Shown here piece after piece: positions 50,405-61,268 of a stretch of 64,000 bases of DNA. This stretch comes from an uncultured Rhizobiaceae bacterium. GTDB taxonomy: Bacteria > Pseudomonadota > Alphaproteobacteria > Rhizobiales > Rhizobiaceae. A program made the position numbers and the translations under genes. The stretch is taken from NCBI GenBank assembly GCA_951813045.1, contig CATOTF010000001.1, positions 124,001-188,000 on the forward strand. The letters run 5' to 3'. The notes under the pieces were generated by a model. It was not told where the DNA came from and made no database searches. It was given only the letters and a program-made list of their open reading frames with translations. How positions within the stretch are numbered: the stretch's first letter is position 1; the number at the start of each line of letters is the position of its first letter.

Positions 50405-50544
50405 TCACAGATTTTATCCGCAGCCTTGTTCTGCGGCCTGGAATTCAATCTATTGGATGATCAAAACAGACAGCCACTTGAATATCGCGGAGTTGGGTGA
50501 TTTACTCTTTGGTTTGGGGCCATAGATATTTCGAGGGTCTGACC

Positions 50545-52401
50545 ATGAGAGTTCTTTCTACCGCGCTTTTCATACTGCTTTTTTATGTTGGTGGCGCATT
50601 TGCCCAGTCGACAAACCAGGCCGCGGAAACGGTAAAACGCGATATTCTGTCGGCTCTCAGCACGCCTTTGCCAATCACCGTTATTGGCCCGCTCATCACA
50701 AATGATGTCAAAGTCACTGCGGATGGCAGCGGATTTCGTGCCGAACTCGACAATACTTTGCTTATGGGACTTATCCCCCTTGGTTCGCTGTCCTTCAAGA
50801 TCATTCCGCAGGGTGATGAAGGAAATTACCGGATTACGGAGTTCAGATTTCCCCAAAATATTGAAATTCTCAACACTGCCAATCTTGGTATTGGATCGAC
50901 TGAATTTGACGGTCTTTGGTCGTCCCGCACCCGCTCTTACCAAAGCCTCAATTTCAAGCTGAACGATGTTTCCGTATTACCGAAAAACCTTGCAGGCGGC
51001 GGCGTCAGGTTTGGCTCTCTGGCGCTCAATGTCGAAAAAGAGGGTGAAAACAACGCAACAGAAAGCCGGTTTTCCCTGTCTGCAAGTGAAGTTGTGTCCA
51101 ATGGATTACCTACCGATGATGTGGCAATCGCCCGGTTTTCAGCGGCACTGAAAGCCGATGGCGCAGAAGCGGTTGACCTCTATGCCGTCCTTAGCCGCTT
51201 TGCCTTTTTGACCGCCATGCAGCAAAACCCAAGCGCTATGCTCAGATTTGCCGAAAGCCTGCGTGCGGAAGCCTATGATACCGTCTCCTTGAATTTTGCC
51301 CTTGATGGCCTGGCTGTGAAATCGAATGACGGTGGCGCAGTTAGAAATCTGACAATAGACAGTCTGACCGCCGTTACAGGTCTGATTGATGTCACGCCTG
51401 AAAACTGGGGCAAATTACTGGTCAATTTTGATGCGGCTAACATCGTTGAACGGGGTTACACCGATCTCAAATCGCTCGAAATTGCCAGCGGGAATGCCAC
51501 AATTACCGGCTCGCAAATTCCAATTGGTGCAACGCTCAGCGCTATCTCTCGCTTGCAGGCATTCGCCGACGGGCAGACCGTTCGTATGAAGGCTACTGAG
51601 CTTATCGATGGATTTTTGAGTTTTGGAAGTCTGGCTTTCAGTTCAAAAGCCAGCGGTATTACAACTTTCCCGAAACGCGATCGTGATCCGACCTTTCATA
51701 TCGGGTCATATTCAACCGGTTTTGGTCTTGAAGGTTTTCACAACCAGCAAGGCCGGATTTTTCTCGATACTGATTTCAACGAACTCGCAATTAGCGGCGC
51801 GCGATTGAACAGCGCCCTTGAAGAGCGCATTTTTCAAACGCTAAACCCCAAAAAGATCAGCTATAATTTCAGTATTTCCGAACTCAATGAAGGCCTGTTG
51901 CGCAAACTCATGAGTGATCTGGTTATTTCGTCCCAACAGGACCTTGCTGGGTTAGCTGTCCCGGCAACGACTTATCTGATGGCCATGAGCCCGGTTTTCG
52001 AAACAAAAAACGCGCGTTTTACAAGCGATGAAATTGATGTCTCTACGGCAGGGAAATTCACATTCTACCCCGGGTGGCTTTTAGGCGGGCTGCCTTTTGA
52101 AGGTAAATCGCGGACCTCCATGTCAGGGCTTGAACGGATCTATGCGCTGATTGCTGATATTGAGAAATCGCCAGAATTCAATGTGAGGCCCGGTGGTCCT
52201 GATCCAACCGGGATAGCCGTTTTCAAAGGCCTGCTCAGCACCATGAAGGCTCTGTCAAAAGTGGAGGGTTCCAACATGATTTGGGATATCCTTTATCCCG
52301 AAGCGGGTAAAAGCCTGATTGTTGTCAACGGCGTAACGCTGCGTTTTCCAGATATCGCATCTTACATACCCTTGATTGCCTCAACTTCGCTGCTCCGCTA
52401 G
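50545..52401 (+). CDS. Large unknown periplasmic protein
   Basis: Not recognised. 618 residues with a Sec signal peptide (MRVLSTALFILLFYVGGAFA, cut before Q). The mature protein reads as long beta-rich stretches, with no transmembrane helix, cysteine cluster or catalytic motif I can name. Serine, threonine and asparagine are frequent, and LNDVSVLP- and LDGLAVKSN-like strand patterns recur, in the manner of AsmA/DUF945-like periplasmic proteins. ATG 50545 follows GAGGGT. It stands alone on its strand after the protease gene; a joint role in the envelope is only a guess. Confidence 0.6.
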   Translation: MRVLSTALFILLFYVGGAFAQSTNQAAETVKRDILSALSTPLPITVIGPLITNDVKVTADGSGFRAELDNTLLMGLIPLGSLSFKIIPQGDEGNYRITEFRFPQNIEILNTANLGIGSTEFDGLWSSRTRSYQSLNFKLNDVSVLPKNLAGGGVRFGSLALNVEKEGENNATESRFSLSASEVVSNGLPTDDVAIARFSAALKADGAEAVDLYAVLSRFAFLTAMQQNPSAMLRFAESLRAEAYDTVSLNFALDGLAVKSNDGGAVRNLTIDSLTAVTGLIDVTPENWGKLLVNFDAANIVERGYTDLKSLEIASGNATITGSQIPIGATLSAISRLQAFADGQTVRMKATELIDGFLSFGSLAFSSKASGITTFPKRDRDPTFHIGSYSTGFGLEGFHNQQGRIFLDTDFNELAISGARLNSALEERIFQTLNPKKISYNFSISELNEGLLRKLMSDLVISSQQDLAGLAVPATTYLMAMSPVFETKNARFTSDEIDVSTAGKFTFYPGWLLGGLPFEGKSRTSMSGLERIYALIADIEKSPEFNVRPGGPDPTGIAVFKGLLSTMKALSKVEGSNMIWDILYPEAGKSLIVVNGVTLRFPDIASYIPLIASTSLLR

Positions 52402-56026: not shown

Positions 56027-57256
56027 ATGGACGAACAGATCAAAGCGTATATCAGGCAGACAAAAAGACGACTGCGTGGCCTGCAAGATGTAAAATCCGC
56101 ATTCAGCGCGGTGCGAGACCAGACAAAATGCGACGTCGAGACCATTCGCGAACTGTCGGAAAAAGGTCGCTCGACAATCCCGGAAATTGACTACGCCAGT
56201 GTCAAGGACGGAACCGTATCGGATAAACTGCGGCAGGAATGCCGGGCGCGGGGAGCGGCTATTATCCGTGGCGTGTTTCCACGCGATCAAGTGGAAGACT
56301 GGAACGCCGAACTGGGTTCTTATATCGCCGAAAATGACTACCTCAAGAAAGCCGAGAAAAAGGCCGGGCTCGACCAATATTTTAGTGCTTTGGATTCTGG
56401 AAAACCGCAGATATTCGGTCTGTATTGGTCAAAGCCTCAGGTGATGGCGCGGCAGGCTGAGAGCATGGCCCGCACCAAACAATTCCTCAACGGATTGTGG
56501 GATGTGGCCGGGCCCATGGGGGATGAATTCGACCCCAATGAAGATTTTGCCTATGCCGACCGCACCCGCCGCCGGGAACCCGGTGACAAGACTTTGGGTC
56601 TTTCGCCCCACATGGATTCAGGTTCTTACGAGCGCTGGGTCGACCCGGCCTATCAGCGCATTTACGGCAAGGTATTCGAAGGGGCCTGGCAGGATTATGA
56701 TCCGTGGAAAGCGACATTCAGAACGCAGACCCGCGAATATTCATCTCCTGCGGTCTGTTCCATGTTCCGCACATTTCAGGGGTGGACGGCACTGACCGCC
56801 CAAGGGCCGGATGACGGCACATTGAGCCTTATCCCGTCTGCCTGTGGTATTGCTTATTTCCTTTTACGAGCCTTGCAGGACGATGTCGCCGAAGATGACC
56901 TTTGCGGCGCCGAACCGGGAAGAGCCCTGTCCGCCAGTCCGGAGTGGCACAGTGATATTCTTGAAGGGCTCGTCTCAATTCCGCTGGTTGAACCCGGCGA
57001 CACGGTCTGGTGGCACCCGGACATTATCCATTCCGTTGCAAACCATCATCAAGGTGATGATTTCGCCAATGTCATCTACATCGGCGCTTCACCCAAATGC
57101 GTCAAAAACGAAGCCTACGCCCGCAAACAGGCCACTCACTTTTTAGCAGGAAAAAGCGCCCCGGATTTCGCCGCCGAAGATTACGAAATAGACTTCAAAG
57201 GCAGGGCCACCGTTGATGATCTAACCGATCTGGGAAAACGACAAATGGGGCTGTGA
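56027..57256 (+). CDS. DUF1479 family 2-oxoglutarate/Fe(II)-dependent oxygenase-like protein
   Basis: 409-residue protein of the DUF1479 family (YbiU-type), a predicted 2-oxoglutarate oxygenase of unknown substrate. Visible are a helical N-terminus (about 1-70), RGAAIIRGVFPRDQVEDW, the probable iron-site HxD in LSPHMDSGSYERWVDP, the second His in VWWHPDIIHSVANHH and a conserved WTALTAQGPDDGTLSLIP. It is followed after 29 bases by the module at 57286-58979 on the same strand, so a shared transcript is possible. An inverted repeat sits close to the start. Confidence 0.87.
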   Translation: MDEQIKAYIRQTKRRLRGLQDVKSAFSAVRDQTKCDVETIRELSEKGRSTIPEIDYASVKDGTVSDKLRQECRARGAAIIRGVFPRDQVEDWNAELGSYIAENDYLKKAEKKAGLDQYFSALDSGKPQIFGLYWSKPQVMARQAESMARTKQFLNGLWDVAGPMGDEFDPNEDFAYADRTRRREPGDKTLGLSPHMDSGSYERWVDPAYQRIYGKVFEGAWQDYDPWKATFRTQTREYSSPAVCSMFRTFQGWTALTAQGPDDGTLSLIPSACGIAYFLLRALQDDVAEDDLCGAEPGRALSASPEWHSDILEGLVSIPLVEPGDTVWWHPDIIHSVANHHQGDDFANVIYIGASPKCVKNEAYARKQATHFLAGKSAPDFAAEDYEIDFKGRATVDDLTDLGKRQMGL

Positions 57257-57285
57257 TTACGGTGATAAGGATTACAGGGCGTTAA

Positions 57286-58410
57286 ATGAGCGAAATCGAA
57301 ATAAAGGCGGATTTAGACACGCTCTATGAAAACAATTCTACCATTCCTTTTGAAATTGAATTTTCCAATCCAAAACATCATGGGCTGAGTGCAAAGCTTC
57401 GTATTCGACATATCGTTAATGTACGAGACAGGAGCCCGGAAAATGTCGACAGAGTGGTGTATGAGCAACAGTTCATGGTTGCCGGTCGTATGTGCAAAAT
57501 TGATGTGCATTCAGACAAAATTCTAGCATGGGGATATAACGGCTTTAAGATTGGAATCACCTGTCAAGTAGAGGTGATAGTGGATGACGCGATCTTCTTT
57601 GATTCAAAAGAAAGAGTGAACATTCCTCTTATGCGTCTCAGTCCGGACAATAATGGTTTGGCCGCCAATCCAGGTGAAGAACTGGACCCAGACGATACAA
57701 TTAATTTTATCCGCAATTTTGCAATTATCTCCTTGAAGCAGAAAATCGCATGGATCGCTGCCTTTGGTGCATTTATCTTGGCGGCGATAGGCAATTTTCT
57801 ACTCGCGCTTTTTGATACGTTTATTGCTTCTGTGCCATTTGTGTACTCCGGCGAACCTGAGTTCATATTATTTGGAACGGGTGCGGGTGCTGTCGCCGGT
57901 GGGGTTGGTTTCCTTGCTGTCCATATAAGAATATTACGATCTTACAAAACTGCTAAACTGGTTGAAACACTACCGATTATTTCGAAAGGCAGGAGCTATC
58001 GGTTTTCTGATTTCTTTAACGCGAGATCTACCGTAAAATTGAAACGTGTTACTCTGCGTCTGGTTGTTGCGAATCTTGAATGTGGGCAATACTGGCGCGG
58101 TTCTGGAACTGATCGCAGGTGTGTGAGTTTTACTCACCCAAGTCGAGCGGTTGTATTGTTTGAAAAGACGGTTGCTGAGATACCAAAAGGGGTGGGTATC
58201 GAGGCATATTTCAACGAACGACTGAATCTGGACAAAACATTTGAGTGCATGCTGCCCAATTATATGATTACTAGTACTCATGGCGTAAAGCTCAAAACGG
58301 TGATCCAGATAATGGTCGCCGATTTGGCTGACACAAGTTTGGAATTGCCGCTCTATATCTGGAACAGTAAAGATTTCACAGATAATCATGACCATGAGGA
58401 CGATGATTGA
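57286..58410 (+). CDS. Unknown two-helix membrane protein with beta-rich, arrestin-like flanks
   Basis: Not recognised by name. 374 residues: an N-terminal beta-rich domain (about 1-120) patterned like an arrestin/Spo0M sandwich, two membrane helices (154-178, IAAFGAFILAAIGNFLLALF; 192-215, ILFGTGAGAVAGGVGFLAV), and a C-terminal beta-rich domain (235-360; YMITSTHGVKLKTVIQIMVA), ending in an acidic HD-rich tail. With two helices both large domains should lie on the same, probably cytoplasmic, side. AGGGCG precedes the ATG. GC of 57301-57360 is 20 of 60 against 36 of 60 upstream at 56521-56580. The stop overlaps the next gene's TTG start, so the two act together. Confidence 0.7.
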   Translation: MSEIEIKADLDTLYENNSTIPFEIEFSNPKHHGLSAKLRIRHIVNVRDRSPENVDRVVYEQQFMVAGRMCKIDVHSDKILAWGYNGFKIGITCQVEVIVDDAIFFDSKERVNIPLMRLSPDNNGLAANPGEELDPDDTINFIRNFAIISLKQKIAWIAAFGAFILAAIGNFLLALFDTFIASVPFVYSGEPEFILFGTGAGAVAGGVGFLAVHIRILRSYKTAKLVETLPIISKGRSYRFSDFFNARSTVKLKRVTLRLVVANLECGQYWRGSGTDRRCVSFTHPSRAVVLFEKTVAEIPKGVGIEAYFNERLNLDKTFECMLPNYMITSTHGVKLKTVIQIMVADLADTSLELPLYIWNSKDFTDNHDHEDDD

Positions 58411-58979
58411 GTTTTCAGTTCGATGACTATTTGAACCTATCAAGCTGGCGTCTGGTGAACAAACGAGTTGTCGTTTTTATTGGGTGCAGTGGCGCCGGAA
58501 AATCGAGCTATATCGAGTATCTGTTGAGCCAGCACCCCGACTTTTTTGACCGGGACGTTTATTGGATTGTGGAAGGCCGACCATTGATTTGGAATGAAAT
58601 GGTTCCAACCAAGCCCTCATTGGTAGTCGTTGATGAATTGCTGGTTTTCAGAGATCTCCGGCAGGTGGCCAAGTTGATGTATGCAGGTCATTGCTTGCTG
58701 ATTGCATCTCATTTGCCCAGGTTCTGGCACTGGCCGTTGAGGTTGTTTGGCTCGATGGTGCAATTTCAGATTGATGGCGTGCGTTTGAAAGTGGTCAATG
58801 CGCTTGTAAGGCGTCAAGTGCAATTCAGCGAACGTGCGGTTGATGACTTCATTCGGCAATATGGCGCCAACTACACAGATCTGGATATGATTTTGGAAAC
58901 CTGCCCAATTCCAGATCTTGATACTGCGCTTCATCACTTCAGCAAGTTTTATTCAGTTGAAAGAGTGCGAAATAATTAG
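58407..58979 (+). CDS. Small P-loop ATPase paired with the membrane protein
   Basis: 190 residues, P-loop NTPase. Walker A is GCSGAGKSS (residues 26-34), Walker B is SLVVVDEL (71-78, Asp76-Glu77), and a sensor-like LLIASH lies near 97-102, giving an AAA/transport-type core with the lid-like remainder up to 190. It starts at TTG 58407, inside TTGA shared with the stop of the previous gene, with GAGGA six bases upstream; no ATG fits in this frame, and GTG 58455 is a weaker option. Function unknown; a membrane-linked ATPase complex with the 57286 product is the natural reading. Confidence 0.75.
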   Translation: MSFQFDDYLNLSSWRLVNKRVVVFIGCSGAGKSSYIEYLLSQHPDFFDRDVYWIVEGRPLIWNEMVPTKPSLVVVDELLVFRDLRQVAKLMYAGHCLLIASHLPRFWHWPLRLFGSMVQFQIDGVRLKVVNALVRRQVQFSERAVDDFIRQYGANYTDLDMILETCPIPDLDTALHHFSKFYSVERVRNN

Positions 58980-59026
58980 TGTGGGTTCCAACCCCAATCC
59001 TTGGTAAGTCCCATTGAGATTACCCA

Positions 59027-59866
59027 CTAATACCGAGTGCCACCGTCCTGTTTTGCGCCTGCATAAAGTATGTGCCGTTTGGCTTGGGCGTCCTGTCGGC
59101 AGGCTTCGAAATCATCTTCGTGCAATCGGCCTTTTGGTGGTTGGGCGATTTTGAAATGGCCCCATCTGTCTTCGCCGCTCACATGGGCGACGAGGGATTG
59201 TGTCCCGTCCTGTTGTTTCATCGACGCCTTTATGTAGCGGATGGCGGCACCGATGCGGCGGTCGTCTGTCGTATTGGGCCCGGACGCGTGAAACAGGTGG
59301 CCGTGGTGCATGGACGCCTGACCCGGGGTAAGTTCGACGGCAATTGCGTCATTCTCGTTCACATCCACAGCAATTTCCTGCCCGCGGGACAACAGGTTAT
59401 TGTCGTCAAATGTATCGACGTGATCAACGGCTGATACTTTATGGCTGCCGGGCACGAATTTCATCGCACCGCTGGCAATGCTCACGTCTGACAGGGCGAC
59501 CCAGCAGGTGGTTTCCTCTGCATCGTCGAGCCCCCAATAAGTCAGGTCCTGATGCCAGGATACAATTTTCGGCGAATTGGCTTCCTTGATGAACAGGGCC
59601 GCGCTCCAGACCATGAGGTCAGGCCCCAGCACTTTCGATGCGTGTTCGATCAGTTTGGGATGGCGAACCAAATTATCGAAAGAGGGCAACAGCCGGTCTG
59701 GATAGGAGCGTAGCAGCGCCAGCCGTTCCGGGTCATTGGCAAGCTCGGCCTCAGCGGATTCCAGATCAGCCCGCAACGCAGCCGCGTCCGATGTATCAAC
59801 AATGTCGATCGGGAAAACATAGCCGTCATCTGAATATCGGGCTTCAACGGTGCGATTTTCCTGCAT
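59027..59866 (-). CDS. Phytanoyl-CoA dioxygenase family protein
   Basis: Non-haem Fe(II)/2-oxoglutarate oxygenase of 279 residues. The metal-binding motifs are HQD in SWHQDLTYWGLDD and the second His in HHGHLFHASGPN, with the 2-oxoglutarate-binding Arg in DDRRIGAAIRY. The substrate is unknown; many relatives act on small osmolytes, fatty acids or sugars. It is the last gene of a minus-strand operon after ugpC-fucU-rbsK, 17 bases beyond rbsK, which suggests a hydroxylated or methylated sugar substrate. Confidence 0.88.
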   Translation of the reverse strand: MQENRTVEARYSDDGYVFPIDIVDTSDAAALRADLESAEAELANDPERLALLRSYPDRLLPSFDNLVRHPKLIEHASKVLGPDLMVWSAALFIKEANSPKIVSWHQDLTYWGLDDAEETTCWVALSDVSIASGAMKFVPGSHKVSAVDHVDTFDDNNLLSRGQEIAVDVNENDAIAVELTPGQASMHHGHLFHASGPNTTDDRRIGAAIRYIKASMKQQDGTQSLVAHVSGEDRWGHFKIAQPPKGRLHEDDFEACRQDAQAKRHILYAGAKQDGGTRY

Positions 59867-59883
59867 GATGATCTCCGGAATTA

Positions 59884-60810
59884 CTATTTTGACAAAAGTC
59901 TCTGCACTTCATCCATGCCCGGCATGGAAGGGGCCGTTCCCTTTCGAGTAACCGAAATAGACGCGGTGGCACCACCCAGCCTCATGGCATCCAGCGGGTC
60001 GAGACCCTGCGCCAACCCCACTGCCAGTCCGCCATTAAAGGCGTCACCCGCACCTGTTGTTTCAACCACCGGGCCCGCGTTAAAGGCTGGCAAATGTTCG
60101 GAACTGGTTTTGGTGTGTAGCAATGCCCCTTGCGCACCAAGCGTAACAATCACATTGCCAACGCCTTTATCTAAAAGCGCATCCGCGGCCTTGCGCGCGT
60201 CATCAACGGTTTCGACCGTCATGCCGGTCAACTCCCCGGCCTCGGTTTCATTCGGTGTGAGATAATCGCACAGCGCAAATATACCCTCGTCCAGCTCCGC
60301 GGCGGGGGCCGGGTTTAAAATTGTCAAAACGCCAGCCCCCCGTGCGATTTGCAACGCTTTATGGGCGGTGGGAACGGGTTGTTCCAATTGGGTGATGAAC
60401 ACTTTTGAATTACGAATAAGGGCGGCGTTTTCTTCAATATGGGCAGGCGTTATCTCCTTCGCCGCGCCGGGGCACACGATAATGGCATTGTCGCCACTGG
60501 CTTCTTCAACGAATATATAGGCAGCCCCCGTGTAACTGTTGGGGTCGCGGATGGCGGCGCTTTTAACGCCGGAATCCCGCCAGATATTTTCCGCCATATC
60601 GGCAAAATCATCATCCCCCAAGCGAGTCATCATCGTTACATCACCACCGAGCCGTCCGATAGCGACCGCCTGATTGGAGCCTTTGCCCCCCGGCCCAAGG
60701 GCGAATGAATTGCCGAGAATGGTTTCCCCCATGCGGGGAGGACGGTCGGCCCGATAGCTCGTGTCAGCGACAAATATGCCCAGCACACTGATGTGTTGTG
60801 AGGTGCTCAT
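59884..60810 (-). CDS. rbsK: Ribokinase-type sugar kinase
   Basis: PfkB-family kinase, 308 residues, that phosphorylates a pentose, probably ribose. The N-terminal DTSYRADRPPRMGETILG, GPGGKGSNQAVAIGRLGGDV (substrate-site GGKGxNQA), the NPAPAAELDE block and the catalytic GAGDAFNGGLAVGLAQG are complete. Together with FucU/RbsD-type mutarotase 5 bases upstream and a sugar ABC ATPase it forms a sugar uptake-catabolism operon. Ribose is the family expectation; a related pentose is equally possible. Confidence 0.9.
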   Translation of the reverse strand: MSTSQHISVLGIFVADTSYRADRPPRMGETILGNSFALGPGGKGSNQAVAIGRLGGDVTMMTRLGDDDFADMAENIWRDSGVKSAAIRDPNSYTGAAYIFVEEASGDNAIIVCPGAAKEITPAHIEENAALIRNSKVFITQLEQPVPTAHKALQIARGAGVLTILNPAPAAELDEGIFALCDYLTPNETEAGELTGMTVETVDDARKAADALLDKGVGNVIVTLGAQGALLHTKTSSEHLPAFNAGPVVETTGAGDAFNGGLAVGLAQGLDPLDAMRLGGATASISVTRKGTAPSMPGMDEVQRLLSK

Positions 60811-60815
60811 TGGGC

Positions 60816-61268
60816 TTATTCCCCATCCGGCGGGATTACCCCTTTGCGAAAGGCAAAGCAGCCGTAAAACCGTCGTTCATGGGTCTGTATCACGGCGTAG
60901 GCAGATTTTGCCCGCTCATAAAAAGCGTAACGTTCGATGGAGACCATCAGTAATGGCTCGCCATTAGCCGCATCAACTTCGGCCTGCACTTCTTCCATAA
61001 CGGGCAATATCTCATCCGGATTGCCGACAACTTCCATACGGGCGGCCGCGTCGTCCACAAATGTGTCCAGCGGATATACGGACAGGACCGCCGCCGCCAC
61101 TTCGGCCGCCGGGCGGTCAATGCGCAAAAGCTTACCGTGGGATGTATGTTTAGCAACAGACTCGGCCGGAAAGTTGGTATCCGAGATGATGAGATCATCC
61201 CCGTGCCCCATGGCGCGTAATACCTGCAATACGTCGGCGTTTAAAAGGGGGTTGATGTTTTTCAGCAT
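60816..61268 (-). CDS. fucU: RbsD/FucU family sugar mutarotase
   Basis: 150-residue decameric mutarotase-type protein that speeds interconversion of sugar anomers. The family signature MGHGDDLIISDTNFPAES (about residues 20-37) holds the active-site His and Asp, and the C-terminal FYERAKSAYAVIQTHERRFYG completes it. The FucU branch fits better than RbsD by length. It sits 9 bases after the ABC ATPase and 5 bases before rbsK, so it delivers the right anomer to transporter or kinase. Confidence 0.87.
   Translation of the reverse strand: MLKNINPLLNADVLQVLRAMGHGDDLIISDTNFPAESVAKHTSHGKLLRIDRPAAEVAAAVLSVYPLDTFVDDAAARMEVVGNPDEILPVMEEVQAEVDAANGEPLLMVSIERYAFYERAKSAYAVIQTHERRFYGCFAFRKGVIPPDGE

Follow-up and report, generated by a model that had tools for sequence, protein, structure and literature searches.

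Within a window of 64,000 nt, the whole stretch of DNA that we analysed from an uncultured Rhizobiaceae bacterium, two adjoining genes, here termed A and B, lie between two oxygenase genes and encode a predicted membrane protein and a predicted P-loop ATPase, respectively (Table 1). The pair had been picked out in a sequence-only reading of this DNA, and its coordinates, the protein lengths (374 and 190 aa), the overlap of the TTG start of B with the TGA stop of A and the GAGGA site are all as given there, with both reading frames open from end to end.

Table 1. Features of the A-B gene pair and its products; positions are those of the window.
Feature	Residues	Position (nt)	Strand	Remarks
Gene A		57286..58410	+	374 aa, ATG start; beta-rich domain, membrane helices, beta-rich domain
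A, first predicted membrane helix	150-182	57733..57831	+	inside hydropathy segment 146-189, peak 2.29; predicted helix
A, second predicted membrane helix	192-219	57859..57942	+	hydropathy segment 192-217, peak 1.81; predicted helix
A, strongly conserved stretch	256-300	58051..58185	+	32/45 identical to homologue; second beta-rich domain
Probable ribosome-binding site of gene B		58396..58400	+	GAGGA, 6 nt before TTG
Gene B		58407..58979	+	190-aa predicted P-loop ATPase, TTG start; TTGA common to A stop
B, Walker A	26-33	58482..58505	+	GCSGAGKS
B, Walker B with adjacent Glu	73-77	58623..58637	+	VVVDE

When 57286-58979 was base-shuffled 300 times, the longest stop-free run in any of the six frames averaged 101 codons with a maximum of 202; A is longer than such chance ORFs and B is, by length alone, within their range. 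It is the homologue and the motifs of B, not its length, that identify it as a real gene, and both A and B are taken as real genes because homologues exist (33% identity for A, 38% for B). Scans for promoters (5 found vs 4.9 expected) and terminators (3 found vs 4.5 expected) were at chance level.

Upstream, a Gig2-like/DUF1479 oxygenase gene (56027-57256) ends 29 nt ahead of A; it matches PF07350 (Gig2-like) at E 3.8e-132 and also stands just above the PhyH cut-off (25.4 bits vs 22). On the opposite strand, 47 nt beyond B, is a PhyH oxygenase gene (59027-59866; PF05721, E 9.9e-27), beyond which lie a PfkB kinase, then RbsD/FucU and then a sugar-type ABC ATPase; the two flanking oxygenases described earlier are thus both recovered by Pfam. 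Matches to the DUF1479/Gig2-like gene occur in 7 of 61 genomes, counting its own, and one of the seven is a fragment only. The PhyH oxygenase, PfkB kinase and RbsD/FucU genes form a cluster at 59027-61268, and PhyH lies beside a PfkB-type gene in 4/4 congeners (L019-L022), with an RbsD/FucU-like gene also in L019, which suggests a sugar-linked oxygenase pathway. Elsewhere in the window, a 634-aa ORF (50497-52401) gave no Pfam match at E 1e-5 and no PADLOC match at E 0.01.

Distribution and origin of the pair

A second copy of the pair was found on contig JAJFHL010000382.1 of the MAG Hyphomicrobiales bacterium OFTM207 (G038), which belongs to another family of the same order; the entries G038 and L003 share one contig of 44,800 bases and, as far as the eye can tell, its proteins, and are treated as a single genome. 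The homologue of A in OFTM207 has 371 aa (33% identity, E 2.8e-45 over residues 20-365) and that of B 196 aa (38% identity). A neighbourhood search had been suggested as a check on the pair, and here the two genes are again adjacent, in the same order and on the same strand, 2 nt apart, with neighbours unlike those of the window (a multicopper oxidase gene before the pair and a pyridine-nucleotide oxidoreductase gene after it). This second instance, in the same order and in different surroundings, supports a real two-gene unit.

The A-B pair is rare in the genomes searched. Queried singly, A had a match in 2 of 199 order-mates (its own genome and G038), and a two-row A profile found the same two among 397 order genomes, its own genome only in 385 class, 299 phylum and 247 family genomes, and G038 as 1 of 4 genomes in G038's family; these counts are not additive because the draws overlap. 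The B profile had a match at E 0.001 in 17 of 229 order genomes, at full length in the same two only (383 and 379 bits), and the other 15 matches, at 24.4 bits or less, are ABC-ATPase-like by reading. A had no match in phage, plasmid or viral-contig records and B none in phage or plasmid records, while a scan of genome contigs returned nothing for the single A sequence and only the OFTM207 MAG again for the two-row alignment. The B profile also picked up viral contig L004 (E 2e-8, residues 3-58), but its protein reads as a polynucleotide-kinase-like P-loop protein and we rejected it as a relative. In many genomes only part of the first-look candidates were scored (for B at most 14), and very divergent members or singles may therefore be missed. 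Within that scope, neither of the findings that the sequence-only reading would have held against the pair was seen: no characterised pair was matched, and no genome with A or full-length B alone was encountered (397 order genomes for A, 229 for B). A literature search gave no description of such a pair among the matches listed.

With only two instances, co-occurrence has little statistical weight, and both copies could possibly descend from one shared ancestral linkage. A and B might then be orphan neighbours without a shared function, held together by translational coupling and joint transfer. Against this, however, the identities of 33% and 38% suggest long divergence with adjacency kept, both genes are open and the motifs of B are retained, and we regard mere neighbourhood as an improbable account of the pair. 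A and B probably work together.

Composition was compared over 48 picked ORFs of the window, A and B included (GC mean 51.8%, sd 3.0; GC3 mean 0.541, sd 0.050). A is the lowest of the 48 in both GC (43.1%) and GC3 (0.419) and second-worst in codon fit (z -2.52), whereas B, second lowest in GC (46.2%), is unremarkable in its GC3 (0.529) and in its codon fit (z -0.14). The unusual composition marks A, not B. The low GC at the opening of A, earlier counted as 20 and 23 in 60, is borne out at 22/60 (57286-57345), 22/60 (57346-57405) and 18/60 (57321-57380), and the 36/60 reported for the upstream gene at 56521-56580 agrees. In the OFTM207 MAG the pair is near its surroundings in GC (A 58.3%, B 63.1%, locus 60.9%).

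The site is variable, since different genes adjoin the flanking oxygenases in relatives: DUF1479 is followed in four of them (L010-L013) by a PfkB-type kinase, a Dabb-like protein twice and a cysteine-synthase-like protein (by reading), and the gene after PhyH differs from the window in 4/4 relatives (L019-L022). The comparison of next neighbours covered these eight and left out L014-L016 and L023-L037; with DUF1479 and PhyH adjoining other genes in the relatives compared, a precise empty site was not definable. No tRNA was found within the window, no inverted repeat at 56900-59400, and no integrase was named by Pfam among the seven window and three OFTM207 neighbours scanned. The locus yielded one direct repeat, with two copies of 21 nt at 81%, which we attribute to chance. 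The earlier description of the pair as an inserted cassette therefore keeps the composition of A on its side, but not that of B, nor a tRNA or an inverted repeat. Acquisition of the pair from elsewhere is plausible, and a cassette with defined ends is at most a lead.

Protein A and its possible likeness to arrestins

Neither A nor B of the window was recognised as a named family, in agreement with the earlier reading, both lying under every Pfam and NCBIfam cut-off. For A there is in addition nothing in PHROGs or PADLOC, and a sequence search of PDB chains gave 0 matches at E 1. The AlphaFold model of A, used as a sketch only (pLDDT 44.5), predicts strands, then helices at residues 135-145, 150-182 and 192-219, then strands again. 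Two membrane helices had been proposed, and window A has two hydropathy segments that fit them, but the homologue has one segment over threshold (142-175) with the second below it. Counts of K+R/D+E, over stretches chosen assuming two helices, are 2/0 and 3/1 on the flanks and 0/3 in the loop of window A, and 3/2 and 6/0 on the flanks and 1/6 in the loop of the homologue. Under the positive-inside rule, these counts point to flanks in the cytosol and a loop outside for both A proteins. With one helix only, the homologue would have one beta domain on each side of the membrane, and the hairpin topology would be wrong for it. Conservation between the two A proteins is concentrated, with 32/45 identical positions in residues 256-300 vs 33% overall, and we propose this stretch, from its sequence, as a putative contact with B or a ligand.

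The beta-rich flanks of A had been called arrestin-like. In a Foldseek search with the A model, 13 of the 50 matches listed are arrestin, ARRDC or arrestin-complex entries; among the matches listed, however, the best has E 2e-3 and none reaches E 0.001, and many unrelated beta-sandwich proteins are present too. The arrestin clan (arrestins, ARRDC, Vps26) does have bacterial members, Spo0M being one (PMC2515105). Unlike the clan, A carries membrane segments, and its beta domains are without mutual similarity, a profile comparison of the N-domain with the C-domain giving no signal of duplication (0.1%). Arrestin-clan Pfam domains were also absent from window A at E <= 1, and from homologue A, the window N- and C-domains and the homologue C-domain in scans at E <= 10, which reach less far than that threshold implies because HMMER filters drop most matches above E 0.1. 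Since no arrestin-clan Pfam domain is found and the Foldseek list is mixed, we term A beta-sandwich-like, and its arrestin likeness is only a lead.

Protein B and its ATPase class

The broad class of B is clear from its motifs, by which it is predicted, as before, to be a P-loop ATPase. Walker A and Walker B, the latter with a Glu next to the Asp, are present in both B proteins (GASGSGKS and IIVDE in the homologue), and this is the pattern of the ASCE division of P-loop proteins. Past that level the matches of window B are faint: the best in Pfam, all under cut-off, go no further than the P-loop (RsgA_GTPase E 0.0024, AAA_22 E 0.0039, guanylate kinase 0.014), ABC_tran is likewise under cut-off at E 0.024, the best in PHROGs and PADLOC have E 0.014 and 0.015, and the 37 PDB sequences found at E 1 are led by a guanylate kinase at E 0.01. 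The strand after Walker B ends in ASHLP (residues 100-104), further helices follow, and YGAxYTD (residues 152-158) is common to both B proteins, whose identity is 41/85 in residues 20-105 and 25/85 in 106-190. A Viral_helicase1 match of the homologue (E 0.00011, 22.5 bits, cut-off 21) was read as the shared Walker A and Walker B and rejected because it is partial (residues 26-81), window B has no such match at E 1 and a two-domain helicase would need a longer protein than B.

By structure, the B model (pLDDT 65.4) comes closest to AAA+ clamp loaders (RFC, DnaX), which by title make up 38 of the 48 PDB rows at E <= 0.001 among the Foldseek matches listed, the rest being RarA/MgsA (4), MutS-beta (3), Lon, Avs4 and PCH-2; clamp loaders also lead in the viral structure library. 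The four helices after the ATPase core add to this likeness. However, TM scores normalised by B are low (0.23-0.39 over the 50 PDB rows listed, 0.23-0.43 over the viral rows), inspection by eye showed no sensor-2 arginine in the lid helices of the two B proteins, and the B profile compared with 12 DnaX sequences reached 13.1% locally and 0.1% globally, in an alignment confined to residues 20-70.

Sequence-profile comparison leans elsewhere, to the ABC ATPases, and B could be an ABC-derived ATPase with A as its membrane partner in an atypical transporter. All 15 of the weak B matches in the 229 order genomes are ABC-like, an LSGG motif being visible in the printed stretches of 12 of them, and the P-loop context GxSGxGKS is that of ABC transporter ATPases, the nearest by sequence among these matches. 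Compared with 15 ABC ATPases, the B profile gave 98.4% in a local alignment of 63 columns and 98.5% in a global one of 160 columns. We discount these figures without dismissing them: the ABC templates had been selected through their resemblance to B, and they form a more varied set than the DnaX sequences. The three MutS-beta rows of the Foldseek search, whose ATPase we take to be ABC-type, lean the same way. Yet neither B protein has an LSGGQ-type signature and only 39 residues separate Walker A from Walker B, both unlike ABC transporter ATPases, while A, with two membrane helices at most, would fall short of an ABC permease except as a multimer. Taken with these points, a transporter of this kind seems unlikely to us.

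A possible membrane machine and the question of defence

The reading that we favour, tentatively and with somewhat less than even confidence, is that A and B are two subunits of one inner-membrane machine in which the ATP cycle of B switches A. One A-B complex is suggested by gene coupling, co-occurrence and the motifs. What is observed are coupled genes side by side in two families, intact ATPase motifs and hydrophobic mid-segments of A; from these we infer a complex, a hairpin in A, a docking site for B and switching driven by ATP. In this machine A would sit in the inner membrane by a helical hairpin, with both beta-rich domains cytosolic, and B, as a soluble P-loop ATPase, would dock on A, most likely at residues 256-300 of the second domain. 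By binding and hydrolysing ATP, B may then alter the shape of A and so open, close or signal through the membrane segment of A. The role would be that of an accessory trait of rare lineages, with which an envelope stress response, small-molecule transport and phage conflict are alike compatible. Structure prediction, put forward earlier as a check, counts against the machine in so far as it went: both single-protein models are poor (pLDDT 44.5 for A and 65.4 for B).

Many defence systems pair a membrane protein with an ATPase, and defence had been one of the roles suggested for the pair. As an anti-phage or conflict module, which would be a special case of the machine, B would sense infection and A would act as a membrane-perturbing effector, or the reverse. 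The sporadic presence of the pair and the low GC of A are in keeping with such a module, as is the one row for the defence ATPase Avs4 among the 48, mostly clamp-loader, rows of the B model. PADLOC, however, has no model that matches window A, and B and its homologue gave weak partial matches to HEC-01A (E 0.015, 12.3 bits) and mads_8 (E 0.0015, 16.1 bits), respectively, models of 363 and 314 positions vs proteins of 190-196 aa, neither of which A matches; for window A, window B and the B homologue alike, no convincing match to a curated defence model was obtained. Eight of nine neighbours (five in the window, four in OFTM207) had no PADLOC match at E 0.01, and the ninth is probably a matter of composition. 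This is a repetitive protein of 1244 aa (L003:12352-16086), 2.7 kb downstream of the homologous pair, which matches 13 ZorA models (best E 1.4e-21), matches that probably reflect coiled-coil composition. The absence of A from phages, plasmids and viral contigs, and of B from phages and plasmids, also speaks against a conflict module. PADLOC and the neighbours thus gave nothing in support of the defence role that had been suggested; its positive evidence consists of rarity and build, it is at most a lead, and a conflict module is in our judgement a doubtful candidate. Still more speculative is the full picture of an undescribed membrane switch, an arrestin-fold hairpin protein with its own mini-AAA+ ATPase that spreads by sporadic horizontal transfer in Hyphomicrobiales as a conflict or stress module, to which we give little credence.

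The two-subunit machine aside, A and B represent two linked protein families that are without a name in Pfam, NCBIfam, PHROGs and PADLOC. With two instances known, this clearly bounded orphan pair is chiefly of use as an object of broader searches and structural studies. If the arrestin likeness of A were confirmed, the pair would bring to light a membrane-anchored arrestin relative under ATPase control in bacteria.
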